From NCBI GenBank assembly GCA_029259115.1, contig JAPDJO010000027.1, positions 1 to 64,000 of the forward strand: a stretch of 64,000 nucleotides of DNA, read 5' to 3'. The notes under the pieces are model-generated. The model was not told the DNA's origin. It saw only the letters and a program-made list of their open reading frames with translations, and ran no database searches. Shown one piece after another: positions 9,879-34,558 of this stretch. Every line of letters starts with the position of its first letter. The stretch's first letter is position 1. The DNA is from Thermoplasmatota archaeon (GTDB lineage: Archaea; Thermoplasmatota; E2; DHVEG-1; B18-G2). The position numbers and the translations under genes were made by a program.

Positions 9879-10832
9879 ATGGAAACAGATAGAAAATTTG
9901 AGGATTTCTTCAGAAGGGTTCAAAAAGAGGTGCAGAGAGAGATTGAGAAGAGCATAAGGGATGAAAATATAAGATATGCTTTGCAAGGTGGAAAGCTTTT
10001 GAGACCGGTTATGCTGATGCTCTCATTCAAAGTCTGCGATGGTAAAAATTACAGAAAAGCTTTGGAGTCTGCGCTCGGTATAGAACTTGCTCATTCCGCG
10101 TCTCTCGTTCACGACGATATAATAGATAAAGATAATGAGAGAAGAGGAAGACCTTCCCTTCATGTAGAGAAGGGTCTTGAAGTAGCTATTCTGACTGGTC
10201 ATAGAATGATAAATGAGGCTTTCAGAATTGCTCTCAAACATGGAAAAAGAAATGCCTTTATCTTTCTTGACACATGGAATGAAACACTAGAGGGAGAATT
10301 GAAAGATGTGGAGATAACCTCTAAGCTAATGGATCATATAAAACGAGGAGATCTCCGCGAGTTGTCTGAGGAATATTTTAAAATAATAGATCTTAAAACC
10401 GCATCCCTGTTTTCGGCAGCCTGCAGGGCGGGAGCGATAGAGGCTAATGCATCTGAAGATTTAACAGAGTTGTTAGCAAGATATGGGAGAGAAGTTGGCA
10501 TATCGTATCAGCTTGCGGATGATCTTGTAGACATAATAAGTGGAAAATTTGATGAAGGTTTGGTTTTGCCTCTTGTTAGACTTTACAGAGGAAAAGAAAT
10601 TGAGATTGTAAAGATTGCTGAGGAAAACAACAAAATTTTATCAAATCTCATAATCAACAGAAAAGAGGATTTGAAGGAAATATATTTGGAGGAAATAAGA
10701 AAACATGTAAAAAACGCTGAAAAGTTAGCGTCTTCTGAAAAGATAAAAGATGGTCCATTCAAGGATATGTTGAGAGAAGCGCCTAGATATATAGTCAATA
10801 AAATGCTTGAAAACGTTGGTGTTGTAATATGA
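9879..10832 (+). CDS. Polyprenyl diphosphate synthase (GGPP-synthase-like)
   Basis: An all-helical E-isoprenyl diphosphate synthase, 317 residues, condensing IPP with allylic diphosphates. The first Asp-rich motif DDIID (79-83) is followed by RRGRPSLH, and the second is DDLVD (about 214-218). The normally conserved AGD after GxExAIL is TGH here (residues 106-108), an unusual substitution. A TATA-like CTATTTAAA lies at 9832-9840 and GGGGGA precedes the ATG. It overlaps the next, UbiA-like gene by 4 bp, so the product may feed that enzyme. Chain length is unknown. Confidence 0.88.
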   Translation: METDRKFEDFFRRVQKEVQREIEKSIRDENIRYALQGGKLLRPVMLMLSFKVCDGKNYRKALESALGIELAHSASLVHDDIIDKDNERRGRPSLHVEKGLEVAILTGHRMINEAFRIALKHGKRNAFIFLDTWNETLEGELKDVEITSKLMDHIKRGDLRELSEEYFKIIDLKTASLFSAACRAGAIEANASEDLTELLARYGREVGISYQLADDLVDIISGKFDEGLVLPLVRLYRGKEIEIVKIAEENNKILSNLIINRKEDLKEIYLEEIRKHVKNAEKLASSEKIKDGPFKDMLREAPRYIVNKMLENVGVVI

Positions 10833-11497
10833 TAGAAATAGAGAAAAAAGGGATGTTATCTCCTTTCACGATACTCACATCCATATTAACTGGCGGTTTC
10901 TTCCCTTTGCTTGGCTCCTTCTTTGCCTCTATCTTTATCCATAGAGTATATTGGGAAGGGATCATATTAACATCTGTAGGAGGATTCGTGGCTCATTACT
11001 TCTTGGCTCATTCCATACATGACCTTTATCATTACAAGATAGAGAAAAGGGCTACGTTGAGTAAGAAATCTCTGAAGGTCATTTTTGCTATGTCTGTGAT
11101 TTTTCTCTTACTTATTGCCATATATCTAACCCTAAAATGTGGGTGGCCAGTTCTGATTTTCTCGATTATAGGAGCAATAGTTTGTATGTATGCAGAAGGT
11201 TTGTTACATCATGAATCTCAAATGGCATTCGGAGCCATGTTTCTAGTTATAGGATCCTTCTATGTTCAAGTTGGATATCCACATGGTATAAATGGAGCAA
11301 TAACTATAGGGTTTAAACCTTGGCTCGAGGCTATGCTTTTGTCCTTTTTTGCTTTCTTTAGCCAGTATGGTTGGCTTATGTTCTATCGCCTAGATGATTA
11401 TGAGTGGAACAGGGCGACAATAAACAAAAGCATAATATTAACCAAAACAGGTCTTGTCTTTCTAGTGCTTGTTTTTATGGTTCACGCCTTGCTGTAA
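10829..11497 (+). CDS. UbiA-like prenyltransferase family membrane protein
   Basis: A 222-residue protein with seven or more hydrophobic helices. HSIHDLYHYKIEKR (about residues 62-75) occupies the place of the first Asp-rich UbiA motif (NDxxDxxxD) and YRLDDYEWNRATINKS (about 189-204) that of the second, but several Asp residues are replaced, so activity or substrate may differ. It is translationally coupled (ATGA) to the polyprenyl diphosphate synthase. Together they suggest transfer of a polyprenyl chain in lipid, quinone or carotenoid metabolism; this is inference. Confidence 0.6.
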   Translation: MIEIEKKGMLSPFTILTSILTGGFFPLLGSFFASIFIHRVYWEGIILTSVGGFVAHYFLAHSIHDLYHYKIEKRATLSKKSLKVIFAMSVIFLLLIAIYLTLKCGWPVLIFSIIGAIVCMYAEGLLHHESQMAFGAMFLVIGSFYVQVGYPHGINGAITIGFKPWLEAMLLSFFAFFSQYGWLMFYRLDDYEWNRATINKSIILTKTGLVFLVLVFMVHALL

Positions 11498-15717: not shown

Positions 15718-16272
15718 ATGGTTGGGGAGGAGTACAAGGAAAGCACTATATATAAACTTGTTAAACTCCTTAAAGAGAATGTTTTGAGGATCCTCATCAT
15801 TCTAAGAGAGGAAGAAAAGTTGAGATGGAAAGAAATACAAGAGAAAACAGATCTACCTGTAGCTACTCTGAATAGATCTCTAGCAGCTTTGAAGGACTTG
15901 CACTTTATAATGAAGGAAGGCGAATTTTACAGATTAACATGGACTGGGAGGCTTGCCTTAGATGGATTATTCCTATTAGGTTTGAGGATAGGGGAATTTC
16001 CATCCAGCGAAAAGATTGAGGATATAGTTGCTGAGAGATTGTTGGCTAGAGACGTGGTCCTCGCTATCCTCATAATACTATTTGCGAGTTTGAAGATAAG
16101 AGGAAGATTAGATATCAAAGAGTTTGAGAATGCCCTCGATGAAGAAAGAAAAGTTATTTACAAGATAATTGGCGATTTCGAGAAGGAAGGTTTATTAAAG
16201 TTTGATGGAAAAGTCGTAGAGGCTACGGATAAACTCAAAGAGATGGGATTAGTAGATATTCTATCACTCTAG
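15718..16272 (+). CDS. Winged helix-turn-helix transcriptional regulator
   Basis: 184 residues. A winged HTH spans about residues 22-75 (ILIILREEEKLRWKEIQ, then the recognition helix LPVATLNRSLAALKD and wing GEFYRLTWTGR). A second HTH-like module seems to occupy the C-terminus (ARDVVLAIL...DEERKVIYKIIGDFEKEGLLKF), so two tandem wHTH domains are possible. A TATA-like TTTAAATTT sits about 25 bp before the ATG, so the mRNA is probably leaderless. It converges with the ligase operon (9-bp overlap). Targets are unknown. Confidence 0.75.
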   Translation: MVGEEYKESTIYKLVKLLKENVLRILIILREEEKLRWKEIQEKTDLPVATLNRSLAALKDLHFIMKEGEFYRLTWTGRLALDGLFLLGLRIGEFPSSEKIEDIVAERLLARDVVLAILIILFASLKIRGRLDIKEFENALDEERKVIYKIIGDFEKEGLLKFDGKVVEATDKLKEMGLVDILSL

Positions 16273-17613
16273 CCTAACCCTAGATATTACCGTCGGTGGA
16301 AGAGAGGGACCAGAGGGATTCTCTATCTTCTCTACTTCCTTTACTTCCACTCTTATACCTTTCCCAAACAGTTTCCTGTATCCTTCCTCTATATCTTTGA
16401 GTAATTTTTCTTTTTCTCTAGTTTCTCCCCTAAACTTGAGTCTTATCTCTACCCTATCCATCTTCTCCTGATAGAATTGAAACCTTTCCAGATTTGTGAC
16501 ATTGAATTTCTCTAAGGATTCTATCAATGGTAAAGGTGCACTAGCTGGGGGTATAACCCTTCTATCTGGCAGAACTATCGATTCTCTTTTCCTTCCCTCC
16601 AAACTTTTGATTATGGGGGTATTGATCCCACATTCGCAATCTTCATCCGATAAGGATACCATATCGGCTAAACCAGAATATCTGATTATGGGAACACCCA
16701 CCGGTAAAAGTTTAGTTATAACTGCATTACCAATCTTACCTTCTTCATCAACGGTTTCAAGATATATAAGATCCGCATTTACATGCATCTTTCCCTCTAG
16801 GCATTCAAATGCTGTGATTGCACCTTCCGTTGATGCATACAAATTTTTTACCTCTGCATCAAAAGCATCCTCGATAAGTTTTCTAGAGTATTTATCTAGA
16901 ATCTCCCCACTCGATATGATGTATTTTGGCCTAATATCTTCTCCTAGACCTTCTTTCCTAAGAAATGCAAGGTTTACTAGCACACTTGTATAGCCTATTA
17001 TAACATCTGGCTTGAATTCACTCAGTCTTTTGATTAAAATCTCCCCACTCTCATTCACAGATAGCATTTGGTGCTCTCCTAGCAATTTCATGGACATTGC
17101 TTTTTCAGCAAGATCTCTATATATTTCTTCGTCACTCGATCCAGGTATAGAAAAATCACCTATGTTCGATACTCTAGCTTTCCTCCAATTAAGACCGTAA
17201 GCCTTGAGGATTCTTAATCCGTAGATCGAGTTTATCGTACTCTCATAAAGAGGGAAGAAAAGGATTATAGGTTTTCCAGATGAACCTGATGTACTTACCT
17301 TGTATCCCATTTTGTCTCTGTACTTCCTTGGAAGGATTTCTTCAAGAGATTTGCTGGCTAATTCCTCTTTACTTACAAGAGGAAGATTTTTGGAGTCTTC
17401 TAACCCCCTAATTTTCTCTATATCCACCCCTGCAGCGTCATACTTCTTCCTGTAAAATATAGTTTTGTGATAGGCGTATCTCAATACCTTTAAAAACATC
17501 TTTTCTTGGTATCTCTTCATCTCGTCTTTATTCAACTTCCATATTCTACCCATTATGCTAAAATAATTCCAAGCTAGTTTAGATAGTAGTATTGGATTAA
17601 GCAAAGGATTCAC
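16264..17613 (-). CDS. PaaK/CapK-like adenylate-forming ligase A
   Basis: A 449-residue member of the phenylacetate-CoA ligase/CapK branch of the AMP-binding superfamily. STSGSSGKPI (about residues 107-116) is the P-loop-like ATP motif and YASTEG is the adenylate-binding motif. NTPIIKSLEGR and a small C-terminal lid domain (VEIRLKFRG) follow. It would activate a carboxylate as acyl-AMP and pass it to CoA, an amine or another acceptor. It is the last gene of a four-gene operon and is paralogous to the first gene; both start MNPLLNP and end PP-x-VIS-x-VR. Confidence 0.85.
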   Translation of the reverse strand: MNPLLNPILLSKLAWNYFSIMGRIWKLNKDEMKRYQEKMFLKVLRYAYHKTIFYRKKYDAAGVDIEKIRGLEDSKNLPLVSKEELASKSLEEILPRKYRDKMGYKVSTSGSSGKPIILFFPLYESTINSIYGLRILKAYGLNWRKARVSNIGDFSIPGSSDEEIYRDLAEKAMSMKLLGEHQMLSVNESGEILIKRLSEFKPDVIIGYTSVLVNLAFLRKEGLGEDIRPKYIISSGEILDKYSRKLIEDAFDAEVKNLYASTEGAITAFECLEGKMHVNADLIYLETVDEEGKIGNAVITKLLPVGVPIIRYSGLADMVSLSDEDCECGINTPIIKSLEGRKRESIVLPDRRVIPPASAPLPLIESLEKFNVTNLERFQFYQEKMDRVEIRLKFRGETREKEKLLKDIEEGYRKLFGKGIRVEVKEVEKIENPSGPSLPPTVISRVRLE

Positions 17614-17617
17614 AATA

Positions 17618-18175
17618 TCACCTCTTGATTAGAATTACAGATTCAGTCCCATCCTTTCTCTTTTTTCTATCCAAGATTTCTAAATTCCTTACATTCAGCT
17701 CCTCTTTACCAAATACTAGAGAAAATGATCCTGCCGTCCTACAGACTATATAGGTTCCTTTTTTTGCATCCTTAGAGATCTTTTCGAGGATTTCTTTTTT
17801 GGGTTCTGTTCCAAGAGCAACGACTATAAGATTAAAATTCTCAAGATCTGTATCTTTACCATCTGCGTGTTTTATTTCCACATTTCTTAGTTGATATCTC
17901 TCAATAATTTTTTTAGCTGCATCAGCAGCATCTTTGTCTCTATCTATGCCGACTATATTCCATTTTTTTATCTTAGCTAAACTTACAACTGTATTAGGTA
18001 TAGATCCACATCCTATAACCAGAACATTGGATTCATCTTTGATTGGGATTGACGAAAATTCATCTATAATTATCTTGTCCTGGATTGTGATATACAGTTT
18101 TGTTAGCAACCAAGATCTAGAGAATATCTTTTCGAGAACTCTAAGATACTTATTGTGAAGGGATTGCAGTGCCAT
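17618..18175 (-). CDS. Nicotianamine-synthase-like SAM-dependent enzyme
   Basis: 185 residues with a class I Rossmann SAM site: VLVIGCGSIPNTVVSLAK (about 50-67) and GIDRD. The SIPNT after GCG, the LIVVALGTEPKKEILEKI stretch and YIVCRTAGSFSLVF resemble nicotianamine synthases, which transfer aminocarboxypropyl groups from SAM rather than methyl. It overlaps the radical SAM gene by 26 bp and is 4 bp from ligase A, so translation is probably coupled. A plain methyltransferase is the alternative reading. Confidence 0.6.
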   Translation of the reverse strand: MALQSLHNKYLRVLEKIFSRSWLLTKLYITIQDKIIIDEFSSIPIKDESNVLVIGCGSIPNTVVSLAKIKKWNIVGIDRDKDAADAAKKIIERYQLRNVEIKHADGKDTDLENFNLIVVALGTEPKKEILEKISKDAKKGTYIVCRTAGSFSLVFGKEELNVRNLEILDRKKRKDGTESVILIKR

Positions 18176-19517
18176 TTTCCAGTTCCCTCTTTATCCTCTT
18201 TCTCTCTATCTTGTAATATCTCCTCATAGCAAAATTCAAGGTTGGCAAAGATAATAGGGCAGGGGATTTTTCATACTCTTTTGCATAACCAATGTAATGC
18301 AGTATCCTTTTCAGCACTTTATCCATAGAATAAAACTTCTTCGTGATCCACATATAACCTTCCAATAATTCCTCTGGCGTCATCTTTTTTGGTCTGAATA
18401 CTACATGAGCCTGACTGTATTTGGACCAGTCCTTGGTCAGGATTCTACCTTCCTTCTCGAATCTATAATATATGGCTGTTCCAGGATAAGGAGTTAAGAT
18501 GTTAAATTCGATACCATCAACTTGCCACTCCTCTAAAGATTTATACGTAGTCTCAAATACATCAGGTGTATCTTCATCGAATCCAAAAATCATTCCACCA
18601 ACAACAGCTATACCATGTTTCTGTATCTTTCTAACGTATTCTCCATACTTCTCAACAACGTTCACATTTGTCAGCTTATGTATCTTTCTTAACGTTTCCT
18701 TTGAAATAGATTCAAATCCAACGAACCACTGGATACAGCCTGCCTCTCTTGATAGTTTCAGAAACTCCTCGTCTTTACCTAACACATTTATATTGCCGTT
18801 TGCAATCCACTTCTTACCCAATCCTCTCATGGCTTTGAAGAGAGCTTTAGAATAATCGAGATCCAAAGTTAGACTGGCGTCTCTGAATATTATAACTTTG
18901 TTGGGGATTGATTTTATATCTTCAATAACATCCCTTATAGGTCTTTTCCTAACCTTCTTCCCTAGAAGTTGAGAAGTTGGACAAAACTCACATCCAACTG
19001 GGCAGCCTCTCGTAGCTTGGACAGCTCCAGACATAAAGTTATAGTAAAGATCTCTTCTCGGATTTGGTATCTTTGATAGATCCGGTTTTTCTTCAGATGA
19101 ATAGACTTTTTTGAGCTTACCCTTTTCTAGATCATCTAAAAGCTTTGGCCATAGATTCTCTGCTTCGCCTATAACTATGGCATCTGCATGCTGTTTAGCC
19201 TCTTCAGGAAGAGCAGATACGTGATATCCGCCAAGCACAACTTTAACTCCCAACTCTCTGAATTTATCAGCTATCTCATAGGCTCTGTAAGCTGTTATGG
19301 TCAATACAGATATTCCAACGAGATCCCACTCATCTGTTATCTTCAATTTTTCGTAATTTTCGTTTATTATCCTCACTTCGTGTTTTTTTGGAGTTACCGC
19401 AGCAACCATGGGCAGAGTTAAAGATGGATTTCCATAAATTATGGATACAGGTTTGAGTCTATCTCTATACGTGGTTATTCCATGTTCTAGTCTAGGCTCT
19501 ATCAGCAATATTCTCAT
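18150..19517 (-). CDS. B12-binding-domain radical SAM enzyme
   Basis: 455 residues. The N-terminal about 140 residues form a cobalamin-binding-type Rossmann domain (MRILLIEPR, LVGISVLTITAY, VLGGYHVSALPEE, IVIGEAE). The radical SAM core begins at ATRGCPVGCEFCPTSQ with the CxxxCxxC cluster motif. A C-terminal helical extension of about 80 residues follows. Members of this architecture methylate or rearrange unactivated carbons (BchE/HpnP-like families). It sits 1 bp after ligase B in the operon. The substrate is unknown. Confidence 0.87.
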   Translation of the reverse strand: MRILLIEPRLEHGITTYRDRLKPVSIIYGNPSLTLPMVAAVTPKKHEVRIINENYEKLKITDEWDLVGISVLTITAYRAYEIADKFRELGVKVVLGGYHVSALPEEAKQHADAIVIGEAENLWPKLLDDLEKGKLKKVYSSEEKPDLSKIPNPRRDLYYNFMSGAVQATRGCPVGCEFCPTSQLLGKKVRKRPIRDVIEDIKSIPNKVIIFRDASLTLDLDYSKALFKAMRGLGKKWIANGNINVLGKDEEFLKLSREAGCIQWFVGFESISKETLRKIHKLTNVNVVEKYGEYVRKIQKHGIAVVGGMIFGFDEDTPDVFETTYKSLEEWQVDGIEFNILTPYPGTAIYYRFEKEGRILTKDWSKYSQAHVVFRPKKMTPEELLEGYMWITKKFYSMDKVLKRILHYIGYAKEYEKSPALLSLPTLNFAMRRYYKIERKRIKRELENGTAIPSQ

Positions 19518-19518
19518 A

Positions 19519-20886
19519 TCAATCCTTCCTCACTTTAGAAATAACCACAGGCGGCGGTGTTGCTATTCCTTCCCTTCTGTTGGTTTTTATTTCTTTCACT
19601 TCCTTGACATTTATATCTACATCTCCCAGAGCTTCCACGAAAGCTTCTTTGAGTTTGGTTTTTACTGTATTCTTCTCTTTATCATCACACTCCTTGAACA
19701 CCACCAGTATATCTATCTTATCGTATCTCTCCTGGACTATCTGAAACTGCTCTATTATTCTAGAGCCTACATCAGACATGACCTGATATGGTATACCTGT
19801 TATAGCCAAAGGTGGTATCATTCTACCATCTGGGAGAACAATCGTGTCTATTTTTCTCCCTTCTATCCTTTCGATTATCGGTGTGTTCATTCCACAGCTA
19901 CATTCTCTATCAGACGGGACAAGCAAGTCGCTCACTCCATTGTACCTTATAACAGGCGTACCTCCCTCTATGAGGGATGTAATGACGATCTCTGATAACT
20001 CTCCAGGAGAAGCTTTTTCTCCCCTTCCATTCCAAAATTCTATATTTACTATATCAGCCTGTATATGCATATTTCCCTCTTTGCATTCAAAAGCCATGGG
20101 GCTACATTCTGTAGCTCCATACGTCTCAAAAACTCTAGCATTGAATGTCTCTTCCAGATATTCCCTGGAGTACCTATCTAAGATAGCACCAGATGATGCT
20201 ATATATCTAGGATTTACGTTCTCTCCTTTGCCCCTATTTTTCAGAGTGGCTAAGATCTTCATTATGTCAGGGTATCCTCCTATTATCTCTGGTTTGAATT
20301 TGTTTAAATCTTCCATTATCCTTTCTGGATCATCTCCCACGTGATAAACCCGGATATTTTTTAGTGGAATAACTCTATCAATACTAGGAATAGCAGATCT
20401 GCTGAAGAATTCCTCCTCGCCGCTCCCCGGGGATAGATCTATCAGAAGAGCTATCCTATTTTTCCTCCAGCTGAGATCGTATTCCTTAAGTACTCGAGTA
20501 TAGAATATCAGTGTTTTGTACATGAAAAGTGGTTCAACAAATATTGAAACAGGTTTACCAGTTGATCCCGATGTGCTTATCACCGAATACCTGTCTTTTT
20601 TTGCCTTATCCGGAAGTAGTTTATCAGGAAAAGCATTCCTAAAATCATCCTTTGTAGTAATTGGAAGTTTCTCTATATCACCTATACCTTTTATCTTGCC
20701 AATGTCTATGTCTTTATATTTTTCCCGATACATGGGAATTTTTGTTGCGTTTTTCAAAATCCTTCTAAACGCTTTATCCCTGTACCTTTCCAATTTCTCC
20801 TTGGAGTATCTCCATATCCTGTCTGCATCTGTTAAGTAGCTTTTTATAACCTTAGACAGCGTTACGGGATTTAGTAAAGGATTCAT
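19519..20886 (-). CDS. PaaK/CapK-like adenylate-forming ligase B (first gene of operon)
   Basis: 455 residues and paralogous to the 16264-17613 product. The ATP motif STSGSTGKPVSIF, the adenylate motif YGATECSPMAF, the Cys-containing CSCGMNTPIIERIEG and a C-terminal lid ending PPPVVISKVRKD are present. It is the promoter-proximal gene of the operon ligase B / radical SAM / NAS-like / ligase A, whose junctions are 1 bp, -26 bp and 4 bp. Two ligases in one pathway suggest two activation steps, for example of an acid precursor and of a later intermediate; this is inference. Confidence 0.85.
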   Translation of the reverse strand: MNPLLNPVTLSKVIKSYLTDADRIWRYSKEKLERYRDKAFRRILKNATKIPMYREKYKDIDIGKIKGIGDIEKLPITTKDDFRNAFPDKLLPDKAKKDRYSVISTSGSTGKPVSIFVEPLFMYKTLIFYTRVLKEYDLSWRKNRIALLIDLSPGSGEEEFFSRSAIPSIDRVIPLKNIRVYHVGDDPERIMEDLNKFKPEIIGGYPDIMKILATLKNRGKGENVNPRYIASSGAILDRYSREYLEETFNARVFETYGATECSPMAFECKEGNMHIQADIVNIEFWNGRGEKASPGELSEIVITSLIEGGTPVIRYNGVSDLLVPSDRECSCGMNTPIIERIEGRKIDTIVLPDGRMIPPLAITGIPYQVMSDVGSRIIEQFQIVQERYDKIDILVVFKECDDKEKNTVKTKLKEAFVEALGDVDINVKEVKEIKTNRREGIATPPPVVISKVRKD

Positions 20887-20989
20887 CTATTGAAAGATGG
20901 TATTAAGTTTATTATAAAGTTTCGAAAACCTTAAAAATCCAAAAATTGGATGTTCTTTATGGACTATTAAATCTTGATCAGGTGAAAAG

Positions 20990-21748
20990 ATGTTCAGATT
21001 TAGCGAAAAATCACATATGTTTAAACCCCATAGATCAACCATCGTATTGATTCTCGTCATGATTTTTGCGTTTTCTGTGTTGATAATCGTATCAAAATTT
21101 GCATATACCCCTTCTCCTGCAGAAGAAACTTTTGGGATAGACAATTGGATTTTTTTACATATATTCGAGATATTGGGCTTCCTTGCATTAGTATTATCTA
21201 TCATCCATAGCTTGAGAGTTTACGGAAGAGATTATACTTTGATCTTCTTCCCTTCTTGTTTCTTATATGGATTGATACTTGAACTCCCCTTCGACTCTTA
21301 TAATCAGAATGCTTGGTTAAAGGTTGGACCCTATGGGAGTATGCTATCTGTAGTGGCAGGATGGTGTGTGATTAACTACATCCTATTATCAATCTCGAGG
21401 GGAATGAGTTGTAATCTATCGGTTATTGATAGAGGGATACTATGTGGGTTGCTTGGTGTTTCTATAGACATACCATTAGATCCTATCGCATATGCATATG
21501 GCTTATGGTACTGGGATGGTACGTTTTTTGGTTTTCCTGTAATAACATTTTTTGGTGTCCCTGTTATAAATTTCATGAACTGGTTTTACACAATATTTGT
21601 ATTTGTTGTGTTTCAGGAATATCTAAGAAAATCGGATTTCAGCCCAAAAATGAAGTTTTTGGTCTCTTTACTTACAATCCCTTTGCTTGTAATGATTGTT
21701 TTTCTACTAGCCTATACGACTCTACATCTGCTCTTGATAATGGGGTGA
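20990..21748 (+). CDS. CruF-like carotenoid biosynthesis membrane protein
   Basis: 252 residues with about seven transmembrane helices. DIPLDPIAYAYGLWYWDG and FFGVPVINFMNWF are characteristic of the DUF422/CruF carotenoid family (bisanhydrobacterioruberin hydratase, 2'-hydroxylation type). It is divergent from the ligase operon across about 100 bp. The polyprenyl synthase at 9879 might supply its carotenoid precursor, but no phytoene synthase or desaturase is in the window. A 59-residue membrane ORF begins 5 bp after the stop. Confidence 0.7.
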   Translation: MFRFSEKSHMFKPHRSTIVLILVMIFAFSVLIIVSKFAYTPSPAEETFGIDNWIFLHIFEILGFLALVLSIIHSLRVYGRDYTLIFFPSCFLYGLILELPFDSYNQNAWLKVGPYGSMLSVVAGWCVINYILLSISRGMSCNLSVIDRGILCGLLGVSIDIPLDPIAYAYGLWYWDGTFFGFPVITFFGVPVINFMNWFYTIFVFVVFQEYLRKSDFSPKMKFLVSLLTIPLLVMIVFLLAYTTLHLLLIMG

Positions 21749-26824: not shown

Positions 26825-29800
26825 ATGGGTGGGATGCACAAGAATCGATCATCAGTAAGAATTCATTCTAGGGTACATCAGGTTAGAATATTTTATACTA
26901 AAAAAGGAAAATTGCGAAAGGATAAAAGAGGGACATCTAAAATCCTGACAATCCTATCCTTAATCATAATTGTTGCATCATCCATATTTACACCAATTCT
27001 GGTCGCAGAACAAGCTGGTGTTTTTAGAAATGATACAAATTCGACGGTAGCTAATTCAGATTTCAATGACGAAACATTAAAGAAGATTAATGGCAGTCAA
27101 GTACCTGGCAAGGATTCTCTCTGTGGGAATGCAACTGAAAAAAATCAGATATCTAGTGAAGATAGCAGTGTAGAATCTAATACAGCAGATAGACCTGATA
27201 ATGGATCAGCGGATGGGAATGCATATCCATCAGATTCTCAGCAGATTAACAATACCAGCAACATTAACGCTACAGGTGGTAAAAATAGCTCAGCAGAAGA
27301 GAATCGCGATAGAAACGAAACTGATATCACGATTTTCAATACTAGTATAAATACAGATGGTTTGATTCTAGGTCGAGTAGAAAGTCAAAGCTCCGATGAA
27401 AATAAATCTATAGAGACTTTTAGTAACTATAGCTGTAGTACAAACAACCAGAGCGATAATCAAACATATGGTAACAGATATGATGAGACAAATCAATCTA
27501 ATATGGGAAAAGATTCCATGTTTTCAAACCTTACCGTTGTTAATGCAACTGATGTTTACAATTATCTCTTTGCAAATTCATCTGATCGAAATGGAACAGT
27601 ATGTACAAATCATATCCACGACATTTCCATTCACACAAACGTTTCCACAAATGGTTCAGCATGCCCACAGAATAAAACCAACATCTCTTTAGACAATATC
27701 TCTTTTGTAGGGAATTTTTCTTCACGAAATGAAGATAGTGATGAAAATGCCACAGAAGATCTCTATAGGGCGGAGAGTAGCGAGGATCTTTTAACTTCTC
27801 AAAATGTATCGTACTCGGATGGTAAAGAGAATCCATCATATCGAGAAAATGAAACGATAAATGTTGCGAGTTGCTCGGAAAAAGAAAAAATTCTCCAGAA
27901 AGTAAATGAATCTCTTTCCGAAGGAAAACCAGTTTTTCTTATTTTTTTAGATGATAACACAAACCCCTATTCTAACCTAGAGAACAAATACGGAGATAAG
28001 ATTACTTTCCTAAGAGTTAAAATAGATGATGCTGTAAGATTCTGCTTTAACTTATCATCTTCTCCGATGCTGTTTCTTATCAAAAATAGGAATGAATCGG
28101 GCTATCTTTATCTAGAAATCAACCCCGAGATAGAAATTGAGAAATTAGACTCCATATTATACTTTGCAGCGAACAATATATTTACGCCTACAAGTTATGG
28201 AACATGGTATAGAGATAAGAGGATTTACCATAGAATATATCATAATATAGATCCTGAGTTTCAACATTTTGATGTAAGAAAAGTTATCCAACCTGCTATA
28301 AACAAGGCTTGGAAATATCTCGATCCCTACGAGTATATAGGTACGAAAAAGATGGATGCCACTATGTTTTCCGCTTTCAAAGTGCTGTACTCTAATTTTA
28401 GAAAGGATCCCAAGATTCTGAAAGCATACAAGGAAAGAGTCTTTGATGGAAAAAAGAGAATTGCAGATAGATACCTATTTCAACTTAACTTCTTTTTTAA
28501 TCTGAATCTAAGCGAGGATAGGTTCGCTAGGAAGGTTATAGAATCTGATTTTCTACAATCTGGAATGCTCACCATAAATGAATTGATACTGAGGGCTTTC
28601 TATAGTGATGAAGTACCATACACAGATGAGATGTTCAGCTGGGTTCTCAATAATTTCTCAAAGAGGGGAGGGTATGATTTAACACATTCTATAATGGTCT
28701 ATGCAATACTGAGAGAAAGGGGAGGATATGATGCTGAAAAGATTGAGCAGGCATTGGATGAGCTCTGCGAACTTGTAGTTGAAGAACAAGAAGAGGATCA
28801 CTCCCGTGGTTCAATTACAGATTTTGACTTATATGCCGAAAGGGTCGGCTTTTTGATCATAGCAAACAGATGTGATCTAATCAAGGAGGAATGGATAGAA
28901 AAGATAATATCCTTTCAAAATGAAGATGGAGGTTTTCCTTTAGGGAAATATGGTGAAGAATCCCACGCTCACTCTACATATGTTGCTCTCCTAGCTCTGA
29001 TGGGGTACAAGAAATATGTTCTTGAGCATAGGGAATTCGATTTTAGTTTCACCAAACCGATACCTGTCAAGAAACCCTACATAGATAGTAGATTTTCCAC
29101 AAAGTTTCTGGAAGAATTAGATAAAAAGGGGAAAGTTAAGAGTCTGATTAAGCTGAAGGAGTCAGTAATTCCTCCTTGGATGGTAGATGTTTTTGGTAAG
29201 AATATAACAGTAATAGATACGAGCAGAGGGAAGTATGCAGTTGTAGAGATAACCAAAGATATCCTCGACTTGTTAAGAAGTAGAGAGGATATCAGCAAAG
29301 TCCTGCTTGACGAACGTATTGGTTGTTCTTTAAGTGAAGCTTTACCATTGATTGAATATGATAAAGCATCTTCTCAATTCAACTACTCTGGCAGAGGAAT
29401 AAGGATTTGCATACTTGATACAGGGTTAAACAAAGCATATGTTGATTTTAGTCAAGGATACGATTTCGTAAATGATGATCCCTATCCAGAGGATAATAAT
29501 GGACATGGAACTCAAATAGCCTTGATAATAAAGTCAATGGCACCTAACACAACTATTATACCAATAAAGGTTCTAAGTGATGACGGTAAAGGGTATGTAT
29601 CTACTGCTCTAGAGGGATTAGAATATGCCATCAGTCTCCATCCCGACATAATAGTTATGGCATTTGGGGGTGGAAGTTATAGTGGATTTTGTAATGATGA
29701 TCCACTAGCAAATTTAAGTAATTATGCGGTAGAACAGGGTATATTTGTAATTGCATCTACAGGGAATGACGGTAGTAAAAATATTACATCCCCTGCTTGT

Positions 29801-32800
29801 GGAGTGAAAGTGTTTAGAGTGTCAGCAACAGATGATAATGATAACATAGCTCCTTTTGCTAATGTTAATCCAACTGTGGATATCTTTGCTCCAGGTGTTG
29901 AAATAACAACACAACTTGGAACTTATTCTGGAACGTCTATGTCGGTCGGCTTCGTAGCAGGTGCAGCAGCACTGCTCATGGAGAAAGAAAAGGGAATTTC
30001 TGTTTATGAGGTCAAGTATAGACTAAGAAGCACAGGTAAACCTATACATTATGTGTACAACTCCTCCATATCGTGTGATATTGCTAGACTGGATGTGTAC
30101 AACGCTTTAATCAATAATCAAACAATGACTCCATATGACTACCACTGGTGGCATGAAGATGTCCCGCAAGAATATGAGGTTATAGGATCCCATGCCACAG
30201 TTATATCCAGCACGACTGACATTGAAGGGGGAGGAGATGTAAATGCAGCCCCTTCTGCATCGTACTATGGCGGAGCATGCGATATCTACGCAGGTAAAAA
30301 GGTAACCACGATACAGACTGATCATACCGATATGGACGGAGCTAAAGATGTTGATGATTGCAGGATAAGAATAGGCACATCTGATGGAAATTACTTTACG
30401 CTTCAATGGAATGTTGATAGTGATAGTTACTCTATAGTTGATGGATCTGGCTATGTTTCGATAGATGGATGTACCGTGACAGAAACGAGTATAACTAATG
30501 GTTATCGTCTCACTTGGGAGTTTATCGTTGATTGGGATTTCCCTTTTGATGATCAAGATTATGATGTTGCTGCATGGACTGATGATGAATCTGGAGCAAA
30601 CTCTGATTATCAATGGGACGAAGCTGGAACTTATACATTTGAAAACGATCTTGAAGTTGTTTCCTTTGAGGTATCAATTGATAGCAATTATGATGAGGAT
30701 CATGATGGAAAGATAGAGGATGATGAGTGGTTTGCTGGAGGGTATCAAGTAACAGCGTCTGGAACTGTGGAATACCAAGGGTCATCGGTAAAATTTGATT
30801 CAAGTTATGCATCGTCAGTTGAAGTTCAACTATTTTATGATACAGATGGAGATGGTGCTCCAGATGATCTTGGAGATACGTATGCTGATACCTCCATAGA
30901 TAATGGTGAGTTTTCCATAACCTACACTCCTGGAACATCTCCAGCCCTTCAACCAAATGCTCATTTTGATGTAGCAATACAGGGAATTCCTACAGGTGGT
31001 TCTGATGTTACTCAAGACAGTATAGAAATAACTTCAAAGAGAGACAATGAGGATCCATCGTCATCTGTAGATCAAATCTCTCCGTATTGGCAGACATCGT
31101 CTCCTATAACTATTACCGCAACTGCAAGTGATGGTTCTGGAAGTGGTATTAATAGCGTGATTTTGTATTATAGATATAGCTCTGATAACTCAACATGGGG
31201 ATCTTGGCAGAGTTTTGGAACAGATACAGCTTCACCATGGGAATGGAGTTTTGACTTTCCGAATGGAACTGGATACTATCAGTTCTATTCTATAGCTGAA
31301 GACAATGCTGGTAACGTGGAATCAGCACCAGCGAGTGCTGATGCTGAATGTTATTACAATCCATCAACAAACACTCCACCCACTATAGGCAACGAATATC
31401 CGGCAAATGACTCCACCAGAGTATCCATCCAACCAACATGTAGAATACAAGTAAATGATTCAGACGGTGATACACTAACAGTATATTGGTATGAAAATAC
31501 AACAGGTGATTGGGTTTTAAGGAATGTGAACAATAGCGTGCCAGCAAACTCTACAGTTAGCTTTAAATTCGCTCAATTCAATGATTATGGTACAACATAT
31601 TACTGGAAAGTAGCAGTCAATGATGGGACAGATAATGTTACTGCTATATATCATTTCACAACGAATCATCTCCCATCCGTAAGCAATGTTATAATAACTG
31701 CATCTCATAACTTCACTCTAGATAACCTAATAGGTAACGGCACATACTATGATGCTGATGGCGATCCTGAATCTGGTTCTTTATATCAATGGTGGACAAA
31801 CGAATCCGGTGCATGGCAGAAAATACCAGGCGCAACCTCTAAGATATTAGATGCAAATCTTACCAAAGAAGGATGCTGGTACAAGTTTGAGTACACGCCT
31901 TGCGATGGTACCAATTACGGCAATCCTGTCAACTCTACACCCTTCCAAGTTAGACCTCTCACAGAAACAGCAACATACTCAGGAAAATTCAATATATCTG
32001 GCAATTTAACTGTAGCAAATGGTGGTACCCTCTATCTAGGTACTTCAACATTAACCGTGGAAAACACAGTAAAGATACTGGATGGTGGTATCTTCAATGG
32101 CGGCTCAGGAACGCATACATTTGGCTCACTTACTGTAGAGAGTGGTGGTATATTCAATGCCACGACCGGGATAACTTATCTGAATAATAAAGACTCCAAT
32201 GGCTATGTTCTTGATATCGATGGAACCATAATCAATAATTCCGGAACAGTAGAAATAGACTCCTCCGGATCTGTCTATATGGATGCAAATCCGTCATCTG
32301 GAAGTTTATTTGATCTCGTAATAAAACTAGGATCTCAAACCTCAAAAGTACTACTTCAGGATGCATGTATAGTAGGAGGAAATTTGACTATCGATGATGG
32401 CATACTTGATACAAACAATAACATCCTAAGTGTTGAAGATAGATTGTACATACTTTCCGGTGGCGAACTCAACTGCACCGGAGACAATGTAGATCATAAG
32501 GTTGGATCTCTTTACTTAGATACCTTTAGTTCTTTCAAAGGTTCTTCCCAAAGTAGACTTATAGTCACATCCCAATACGGTGGTCTCTCATTAAATATAT
32601 TAGGAGATTTTATCTCGAATGGTGAATCTATCGAATTGAGAACCTCCGAATCGTCTCGAATAAACGTCAAATCTTCTTCTGGTGGATTGTATAATCTGAT
32701 TATCAATTCGAGTTCAATCGTGGAGTGGGAAGGTAGCTTAAACATTTTGAATAACCTTACCATCATATCAGGTACACTCAGACCATTTGTTGGAAGTAAT

Positions 32801-34558
32801 GATATAACTGTTGGTAATACCGTCAATATTAATGACGGAACCCTAGGTAGTAACTCCGCGTCTGGAATATGGACTTTCGGCTCAATTATTCAAAGTTCTG
32901 GAACAATATATGCAACTTCTAAATTCATAAACATAACCGGAAAATCGAATACTGGATATGCTGTAGATTTAGATGGGATCTTCATTAATAATTCTTGTGT
33001 AATTAGGATAAAAAGCAGTAGTGAAGCAAGTATAGATATATCTCCCTCATCTGGAAATCTCTATGATCTTGTTATAGACACTGGCAGCTATAAAATCACA
33101 AGTATCGAATCTTCCGTGATTTCTAATAACCTAAGCATATTATCCGGAACATTTGATTTGAAAAGTGATCTGGATGTTGGTAATGTTAATATAGGAACTA
33201 ACTGTGTATTCAATATAACAAATGATGCAACCCTCTCAATGGATGGTACCCTAACACTAAATGGTGATTTCAATATTATTGATGGTAATGCAACTGGCAT
33301 CAATCTTGGAGGAACGCTATTTGATCTTCTCAACGCTGTGAATATCTCTATCCAAAATGTCGTAGGTGTACCCTCTGATCCGCCTAATCTCAGAAACATA
33401 GGCAAGTATGTGAATATAACAAGTTGCGGGTCATCTTCAATTGTGGATATCAATATAACTTACAGCGACTTAGACCTGGGTACAGTAGATGAGAGCAGTT
33501 TAAGAATGTATGAATACAACTCTTCAACATCTACTTGGTCAATTGCTCCAAATACTGGAGTGAATGTCTCTACTAATCATGTCTGGGCTATTGGTGTAAC
33601 CAACTTCAGTGTATATGCTCCTTTAGGGGAAACTCAAAACAATCCACCCACCATTAATAGCATAGATCTAAGAAATGATACAGGATCCAAGTTGAATAGC
33701 GACCAGATGATAGATGTAAATAAAGAGTATTACTTCTTGATAAATGTTACAGATCCTGATGGATGGCAAGATGTAGAATACATCAACATAACAGCATGGT
33801 ATGATAACGGAAATGAAAGTAGTTATTATAATCAGACGCTTGGCGGGAATTTGAATATGTTCTTACAGTACAAAAACACGACAGGAACTGCGGAGTATAG
33901 GTTAATTTGGCCAAAGGATGAGGTTGAATTGATTGTAGCAAATTGTAGCGAAACAATAATCAATTCGACTACGAGAGAGATAAAGATTGCATTTAAGCCA
34001 AAGTCCCAGTTCAGATATGCGCCAGGCGACGGCACATGGAACTCAACTGTAAATGCAACCGATGATCCATACTCCTGGAATGTGAATGTATCTGTAGAAG
34101 ACAACAGTAGCGCAGGATCTTGGGAAAAGAGTGAGTTCGGAGTTTATAGATACGTAAATATAGAAGTCCCATCGAACTGGATAGGTGTCTCTGCCCTACC
34201 AGGCCATTACGATGATTCTAACGTCGTTACAATAACGTTTTCATCAAACTACGATTATAAATTATCGATATGGTTCTCTACAAATCTCGTAAATCAATCA
34301 ACAGGATCTGTGATTCCAATAGCAAATAACGTTTATGCCCTAGCGAATGCAGATCCCAATGATGACATAACAACAGATACAGTGTTCTCTGGAACTGGGG
34401 AGGGTAATGCTGTTGAGATAATAAATGCATCTGGAACATTCAATCCAAATGGAACCTATCAGACTGTAAACGTTCAATTCAGGGTTTACATTCCATTCGG
34501 CACCTTATCTGGAGAGTACAGAGCAAATACCCACGCTAAAATAGAACAAAAGACTTAA
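26825..34558 (+). CDS. Giant multidomain secreted subtilase (2577 residues)
   Basis: A long basic N-region precedes a signal helix (about 40-62). Residues 65-350 are an Asn/Ser-rich stretch with dozens of NxS/T sequons. A degenerate thioredoxin-like segment (about 352-455) has no CxxC. An alpha/alpha-barrel-like region with GGYD and DGGFPLGKYGEESHAHSTYVAL (about 600-735) resembles terpene-cyclase/alpha-2-macroglobulin repeats. The S8 peptidase (about 856-1095) has D near 865 (CILDTGLN), H near 895 (GHGTQ) and S near 1038 (GTSMSVGF). Ig-like domains (1400-1700) follow, then beta-solenoid repeats (about 1712-2160). The last 300 residues form a module repeated in the next two genes. There is no C-terminal membrane helix. 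Confidence 0.85.
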   Translation: MGGMHKNRSSVRIHSRVHQVRIFYTKKGKLRKDKRGTSKILTILSLIIIVASSIFTPILVAEQAGVFRNDTNSTVANSDFNDETLKKINGSQVPGKDSLCGNATEKNQISSEDSSVESNTADRPDNGSADGNAYPSDSQQINNTSNINATGGKNSSAEENRDRNETDITIFNTSINTDGLILGRVESQSSDENKSIETFSNYSCSTNNQSDNQTYGNRYDETNQSNMGKDSMFSNLTVVNATDVYNYLFANSSDRNGTVCTNHIHDISIHTNVSTNGSACPQNKTNISLDNISFVGNFSSRNEDSDENATEDLYRAESSEDLLTSQNVSYSDGKENPSYRENETINVASCSEKEKILQKVNESLSEGKPVFLIFLDDNTNPYSNLENKYGDKITFLRVKIDDAVRFCFNLSSSPMLFLIKNRNESGYLYLEINPEIEIEKLDSILYFAANNIFTPTSYGTWYRDKRIYHRIYHNIDPEFQHFDVRKVIQPAINKAWKYLDPYEYIGTKKMDATMFSAFKVLYSNFRKDPKILKAYKERVFDGKKRIADRYLFQLNFFFNLNLSEDRFARKVIESDFLQSGMLTINELILRAFYSDEVPYTDEMFSWVLNNFSKRGGYDLTHSIMVYAILRERGGYDAEKIEQALDELCELVVEEQEEDHSRGSITDFDLYAERVGFLIIANRCDLIKEEWIEKIISFQNEDGGFPLGKYGEESHAHSTYVALLALMGYKKYVLEHREFDFSFTKPIPVKKPYIDSRFSTKFLEELDKKGKVKSLIKLKESVIPPWMVDVFGKNITVIDTSRGKYAVVEITKDILDLLRSREDISKVLLDERIGCSLSEALPLIEYDKASSQFNYSGRGIRICILDTGLNKAYVDFSQGYDFVNDDPYPEDNNGHGTQIALIIKSMAPNTTIIPIKVLSDDGKGYVSTALEGLEYAISLHPDIIVMAFGGGSYSGFCNDDPLANLSNYAVEQGIFVIASTGNDGSKNITSPACGVKVFRVSATDDNDNIAPFANVNPTVDIFAPGVEITTQLGTYSGTSMSVGFVAGAAALLMEKEKGISVYEVKYRLRSTGKPIHYVYNSSISCDIARLDVYNALINNQTMTPYDYHWWHEDVPQEYEVIGSHATVISSTTDIEGGGDVNAAPSASYYGGACDIYAGKKVTTIQTDHTDMDGAKDVDDCRIRIGTSDGNYFTLQWNVDSDSYSIVDGSGYVSIDGCTVTETSITNGYRLTWEFIVDWDFPFDDQDYDVAAWTDDESGANSDYQWDEAGTYTFENDLEVVSFEVSIDSNYDEDHDGKIEDDEWFAGGYQVTASGTVEYQGSSVKFDSSYASSVEVQLFYDTDGDGAPDDLGDTYADTSIDNGEFSITYTPGTSPALQPNAHFDVAIQGIPTGGSDVTQDSIEITSKRDNEDPSSSVDQISPYWQTSSPITITATASDGSGSGINSVILYYRYSSDNSTWGSWQSFGTDTASPWEWSFDFPNGTGYYQFYSIAEDNAGNVESAPASADAECYYNPSTNTPPTIGNEYPANDSTRVSIQPTCRIQVNDSDGDTLTVYWYENTTGDWVLRNVNNSVPANSTVSFKFAQFNDYGTTYYWKVAVNDGTDNVTAIYHFTTNHLPSVSNVIITASHNFTLDNLIGNGTYYDADGDPESGSLYQWWTNESGAWQKIPGATSKILDANLTKEGCWYKFEYTPCDGTNYGNPVNSTPFQVRPLTETATYSGKFNISGNLTVANGGTLYLGTSTLTVENTVKILDGGIFNGGSGTHTFGSLTVESGGIFNATTGITYLNNKDSNGYVLDIDGTIINNSGTVEIDSSGSVYMDANPSSGSLFDLVIKLGSQTSKVLLQDACIVGGNLTIDDGILDTNNNILSVEDRLYILSGGELNCTGDNVDHKVGSLYLDTFSSFKGSSQSRLIVTSQYGGLSLNILGDFISNGESIELRTSESSRINVKSSSGGLYNLIINSSSIVEWEGSLNILNNLTIISGTLRPFVGSNDITVGNTVNINDGTLGSNSASGIWTFGSIIQSSGTIYATSKFINITGKSNTGYAVDLDGIFINNSCVIRIKSSSEASIDISPSSGNLYDLVIDTGSYKITSIESSVISNNLSILSGTFDLKSDLDVGNVNIGTNCVFNITNDATLSMDGTLTLNGDFNIIDGNATGINLGGTLFDLLNAVNISIQNVVGVPSDPPNLRNIGKYVNITSCGSSSIVDINITYSDLDLGTVDESSLRMYEYNSSTSTWSIAPNTGVNVSTNHVWAIGVTNFSVYAPLGETQNNPPTINSIDLRNDTGSKLNSDQMIDVNKEYYFLINVTDPDGWQDVEYINITAWYDNGNESSYYNQTLGGNLNMFLQYKNTTGTAEYRLIWPKDEVELIVANCSETIINSTTREIKIAFKPKSQFRYAPGDGTWNSTVNATDDPYSWNVNVSVEDNSSAGSWEKSEFGVYRYVNIEVPSNWIGVSALPGHYDDSNVVTITFSSNYDYKLSIWFSTNLVNQSTGSVIPIANNVYALANADPNDDITTDTVFSGTGEGNAVEIINASGTFNPNGTYQTVNVQFRVYIPFGTLSGEYRANTHAKIEQKT

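Follow-up and report, generated by a model that had tools for sequence, protein, structure and literature searches.

A PaaK-like ligase, a B12-binding radical SAM enzyme and a short nicotianamine-synthase-like protein travel together across an archaeal class and probably serve one pathway

Nicotianamine synthase (NAS) and its relatives transfer the aminocarboxypropyl group of S-adenosylmethionine (SAM) to an acceptor, as in thermonicotianamine synthase (MtNAS) and the staphylopine enzyme CntL. The catalytic pair of MtNAS consists of Glu81 and Tyr107 (PMC10491745), and the equivalents of both residues are essential in AtNAS1 (PMC10248798). A full-text search of non-subscription literature returned no described cluster that joins an enzyme of this type to an adenylate-forming ligase and a B12-binding radical SAM enzyme. 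Here we describe such an operon in an archaeal genome and compare it with these and other characterized systems.

The window, by which we mean the whole 64,000-nucleotide stretch of DNA that was analysed, lies on contig C7 of a 1.4 Mb genome (94 contigs, 98.7% complete), the named relatives of which are uncultured Thermoplasmata metagenome-assembled genomes. A first-pass annotation had proposed a four-gene operon with junctions of 1, -26 and 4 bp, and both its coordinates (16264-20886) and its junctions were reproduced, with four minus-strand open reading frames that we refer to as ligA, rSAM, NASL and ligB. The operon and its relevant neighbours are as follows.

9879-10832, plus strand: polyprenyl synthetase gene, overlapping the F10 gene and 5 kb from the operon
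10829-11497, plus strand: F10, integral membrane protein (family members ~213-222 aa), with a 4-bp overlap with the polyprenyl synthetase gene
15718-16272, plus strand: winged-helix protein, converging on ligB and overlapping its stop by 9 bp
16264-17613, minus strand: ligB, second PaaK-like ligase (449 aa, GTG start), last gene of the operon, outside the conserved set
17618-18175, minus strand: NASL, short NAS-like SAM enzyme (185 aa), conserved core
18150-19517, minus strand: rSAM, B12-binding radical SAM enzyme (455 aa), conserved core
19519-20886, minus strand: ligA, PaaK-like adenylate-forming ligase (455 aa), first gene of the operon, conserved core
20911-20918, minus strand: TATA-like box TTTATAAT, ~29 nt before the ligA ATG, read by eye
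20990-21748, plus strand: CruF-like membrane protein, divergent neighbour of the operon

The ligA and rSAM genes are separated by 1 bp and NASL and ligB by 4 bp, while rSAM and NASL overlap by 26 bp, which places the NASL start codon inside the rSAM gene; an identical overlap is found in G002 (locus L077), a genome of the same genus. The TATA-like box is likely the operon promoter. The convergent winged-helix protein, which matches PF25213 and TrmB/ArsR-type helix-turn-helix models in Pfam, is a possible regulator, and in G002 a gene of the same family (F27) takes this convergent position towards NASL. The divergent CruF-like gene (PF04240, 3.2e-8) was rejected as an operon member, as it is not conserved with the operon: just 13 of the 80 class genomes give a match, and no other genome of the window's own family does. 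The largest open reading frame of the window lies elsewhere (26825-34558, plus strand, 2577 aa).

The two ligases are paralogous, as the first-pass annotation had it: they are 37% identical across their full length, and both begin with MNPLLNP and end with PP-x-VIS-[KR]-VR. LigA passes the AMP-binding model PF00501 (39.1 bits against a cut-off of 29.9) and contains the motifs STSGSTGK (at 104), YGATE (256) and RYNGVSD (314) and a C-terminal ISKVRKD, so that it has both the AMP-binding domain and the A3/A5/A7 motifs of a PaaK-like ligase of the ANL family. LigB has no Pfam match, yet the adenylation motifs are kept along with the identity to ligA; the C-terminal Lys of ligA is Arg in ligB. PaaK chains in the PDB match ligA at 3.7e-25 and ligB at 1.8e-14.

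The second gene likewise bore out its earlier description as a cobalamin-type radical SAM protein. It scores above the Pfam cut-offs for the B12-binding domain (PF02310, 48.4 bits against 32.1), for the Radical_SAM domain (PF04055, 55.4 against 29.5) and for DUF4070 (PF13282), and carries a CX3CX2C motif at residue 172 (CPVGCEFC); the first two domains and the motif are those of B12-binding radical SAM enzymes. Its closest match, at 92% identity, is in Thermoplasmata archaeon AUK133; orthologues are 92, 78 and 68% identical within the window's own family and 48-62% identical across the class. The closest named families in NCBIfam are BchE (1.7e-32; 112.9 bits against a family cut-off of 481) and HpnJ (2.2e-28; 99.4 bits against 578), and the lipid enzymes HpnR and a ladderane-type model are also among the named relatives; rSAM falls below the cut-off of every named equivalog, including BchE, HpnJ and HpnR. 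Assignment as a GMGT synthase was rejected, given that Gms has a SPASM domain and that no B12 domain has been described for it (PMC11186832).

For the 185-residue protein a resemblance to NAS had been noted from the sequence. It passes the Pfam NAS model PF03059 (31.0 bits against a gathering cut-off of 27.1), but generic methyltransferase models score it about equally, so the assignment was settled by structural comparison. In the predicted structure (pLDDT 93), NAS and CntL structures occupy Foldseek ranks 1-7 with TM scores of 0.79-0.84, and the methyltransferases ranked below them score mostly 0.53-0.65. A profile built from 25 family members and compared with the PDB finds CntL at 3e-20 and MtNAS at 1e-14, followed by CbiT at 2e-7. 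By Pfam, PDB profile and predicted fold, the protein is thus nearest to NAS and CntL, and by fold it is not an ordinary methyltransferase. The motif GCGSIPNT (at 55) corresponds to the NAS-type GxGxxPxT, with Pro60 kept in 72 of 73 homologues and Thr62 in 66; Glu39 is kept in 72 of 73.

The match, on the other hand, begins only at position 121 of the 276 in the PF03059 profile, and the model has two helices before the Rossmann domain where a NAS of ~280-300 aa has a full N-terminal helical domain. Because the protein is only 185 aa long and most of that domain is missing, we call it NAS-like (NASL) rather than NAS; nor is it CntL itself (NF033601, 42.8 bits against an equivalog cut-off of 350). 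The column of MtNAS Tyr107 holds Tyr in 33 of 73 homologues and Gln32 in the window protein. An acidic residue stands at position 15 in 72 of 73 homologues, a position that cannot be aligned to MtNAS Glu81, and a plasmid search for a full-length NAS, meant to place Glu81, gave no matches. The mostly missing N-terminal domain, the Gln at the catalytic Tyr position and the near-equal scores of generic models would all suit an ordinary methyltransferase of small molecules, similar to CbiT or PCMT, whose likeness to NAS is limited to the Rossmann core. The wide gaps in profile E-value and TM score and the conserved Pro and Thr of the NAS-type motif argue against that identity, which we regard as unlikely, though it deserves to be kept in view.

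How far the operon is conserved was followed in related genomes, with families given anonymous labels (f1 for the window's own, f2 for its sister). In G002, the nearest relative whose locus could be read, the order ligA, rSAM, NASL is kept (71, 92 and 59% identity, respectively); ligB is not in the operon there, and NASL adjoins the convergent winged-helix gene. The rSAM and NASL genes overlap in G004; ligase, NASL and radical SAM genes form one operon in a different order in G005, from another family; and in G166 (locus L244), which belongs to another order, a gap of 28 bp separates NASL from the rSAM orthologue. These arrangements identify three genes, rather than four, as the conserved unit, and no clear group of ligB orthologues was found. 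The expectation that the four-gene set would co-occur elsewhere therefore held for ligase, rSAM and NASL, which occur together in many genomes, and failed for ligB. Rates of dN/dS for the two closest relatives were unusable, with synonymous sites saturated.

The 80 class genomes show one distribution for strong matches to ligase, rSAM and NASL, which are present in f1-f5 and f39 and absent from f6, f7, f37, f38 and f40, with a few incomplete genomes lacking one or another gene. The genes are also physically linked: NASL and rSAM lie within 5 kb in at least 23 of 65 genomes (1.4 expected under random placement), NASL and ligase in at least 18 of 65 (1.3 expected), and ligase and rSAM in at least 34 of 67 (2.0 expected), at least 14-17 times above random placement, these counts being lower bounds over related, phylogenetically non-independent genomes and not p-values. 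On this evidence we put at roughly 60% the probability that ligA, rSAM and NASL constitute one conserved biosynthetic module, with ligB a lineage-specific addition to the operon. That the three genes might instead be neighbours with no common product, rSAM and NASL each serving a separate core function, is suggested by f4 and f5, where the genes are dispersed (no linkage within 5 kb among the matches listed for the 18 genomes with NASL) and unrelated genes flank the rSAM orthologue. We consider this improbable, since the genes have re-associated repeatedly in differing orders within f1, f2 and f39 and their presence and absence match across families.

Some f4 loci have associations of their own. 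In L217-L220, NASL lies near serine-recombinase-like genes without ligase or rSAM, with a UbiE-like methyltransferase in L217 and L219; at L241:11815-14668 and L243:5549-12775, a further conserved cluster joins a SPASM radical SAM protein, a second radical SAM protein and a 619-626 aa protein to a ligase of the same family.

A ligase–rSAM partnership has a parallel outside the operon. A second ligase clade (n=6, support 100/100) adjoins a matching rSAM clade (n=6, 100/99) in the same six genomes, and this mirroring of the operon supports a working partnership of the two enzymes. In five of the six genomes the second pair stands next to genes for NapH-like and thioredoxin-like proteins. NapH-like ferredoxin and thioredoxin-like proteins adjoin the ligase at L082, L092, L094, L099, L106, L166, L169 and L175, most of which contain the second pair, which points to a redox link.

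Because the three families travel together across the class, their probable output is a single small molecule or lipid modification not yet described, and we place moderate confidence in their forming one pathway. Its steps can be proposed from the families to which the enzymes belong. LigA, and perhaps ligB, would adenylate a carboxylic acid and pass it to CoA or an amine; rSAM would modify an unactivated carbon, with methylation as the simplest case; and NASL is predicted to act like MtNAS and CntL, transferring the aminocarboxypropyl group of SAM to an acceptor. Judging from the ligase family, the product may contain an amide or thioester linkage.

The gene neighbourhoods of NASL in f2 give some indication of the product. 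There, the genes belong to larger clusters in which NASL is repeatedly found beside UbiA prenyltransferases (PF01040, 3e-32). Its other recurrent neighbours are a glycosyltransferase and a sulfotransferase, O-methyltransferases, a protein of 435 aa (F4) and either an OleD/HpnA-like SDR or a ketopantoate-reductase-like protein. The predicted structure of F4 (pLDDT 76) has a double-lipocalin fold nearest to AttH and kievitone hydratase, the latter an enzyme that hydrates a prenyl side chain, and 3 of 11 members give a weak match to Pfam CrtC (5e-7 at best). In G003, NASL stands beside a geranylgeranyl-reductase-like protein (TIGR02032, 4e-19). These clusters suggest a prenylated or lipid-like product in those genomes, and the combination of the module with prenyltransferases and a prenyl-hydratase-like protein makes an isoprenoid- or lipid-linked product the leading guess for f2. 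A large expansion of UbiA was seen in the f2 genomes checked, which have 8-16 copies against one in the window genome. Because the window genome has a single UbiA, prenylation cannot everywhere depend on a dedicated UbiA, and UbiA was rejected as a required partner there. The product class of lipid or cofactor named in the first-pass annotation thus gains indirect backing, and this only from neighbouring genes in the sister family. The F10 gene, 56-58% identical across families, has relatives that adjoin the ligase in the sister family (L069, L092, L100); it has no match in Pfam or NCBIfam, and an identity as UbiA was not supported (hhalign probability 0.3%).

A specific form of such a product would be a tailored membrane lipid, with rSAM acting on tetraether or other isoprenoid lipids as HpnJ or HpnR acts on hopanoids and NASL adding a homoserine-type head group in the form of aminocarboxypropyl. 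This reading is consistent with the presence of HpnJ, HpnR and the ladderane-type model among the closest named relatives of rSAM, with the isoprenoid genes around NASL in f2 and with a conservation of the module across the clade that resembles that of a core trait. However, the named relative of rSAM that scores highest, BchE, does not belong to the lipid enzymes, it is hard to see what an acid-activating ligase would do on ether lipids, and the lipid genes near the window operon amount to the non-conserved CruF-like neighbour and the polyprenyl synthetase 5 kb away; we therefore hold lipid tailoring to be possible but doubtful. Narrower still, and a long shot, is the idea that NASL founds an archaeal enzyme family, spread across the clade, by which isoprenoid or lipid acceptors receive the aminocarboxypropyl (homoserine) group of SAM, in one pathway with a B12 radical SAM enzyme. 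If true, archaea would have a lipid of the homoserine or betaine type whose synthesis relies on an enzyme with no relation to BtaA.

The nearness of NASL to CntL and MtNAS raises a further option, and one that had been put forward from the sequence, a staphylopine- or thermonicotianamine-like metallophore for which NASL would form a chelator of the aminocarboxypropyl amino acid type and the ligase would extend it. The gene contexts spoke against it: the cluster copies examined had no recognisable opine dehydrogenase, metal transporter or metal regulator nearby, the reductase that adjoins NASL in some of them resembles ketopantoate reductase rather than an opine dehydrogenase, and the neighbours are prenyl-, glycosyl- and sulfotransferases. 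As neither an opine dehydrogenase nor transport genes were recognised in these clusters, a metallophore is very unlikely.

The module of ligase, rSAM and NASL occurs in nearly every genome sampled from a large uncultured sediment and vent archaeal group, and its product is therefore probably a defining molecule of that group. NASL would represent a new, short branch of NAS-like enzymes tied to radical chemistry and acid activation.

LigA and ligB belong to the ANL family by sequence and keep its adenylation motifs, as do PaaK-type phenylacetate-CoA ligases, F390 synthetase, FlxY and the DVU_1553 family, but they score far below every family cut-off, and the operon stands apart from genes of phenylacetate catabolism. 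Similarly, rSAM shares the N-terminal B12-binding domain and radical SAM core of BchE, HpnJ and HpnR, but scores far below their family cut-offs and has a different gene context. NASL shares with MtNAS and CntL the SAM-binding Rossmann domain, the GxGxxPxT motif and the top profile and fold matches, whereas those proteins, of ~280-300 aa, are much longer than the 185-aa NASL with its two N-terminal helices, the catalytic Tyr is not kept in the window protein, and NASL is linked to a radical SAM enzyme and a ligase in place of metallophore genes.
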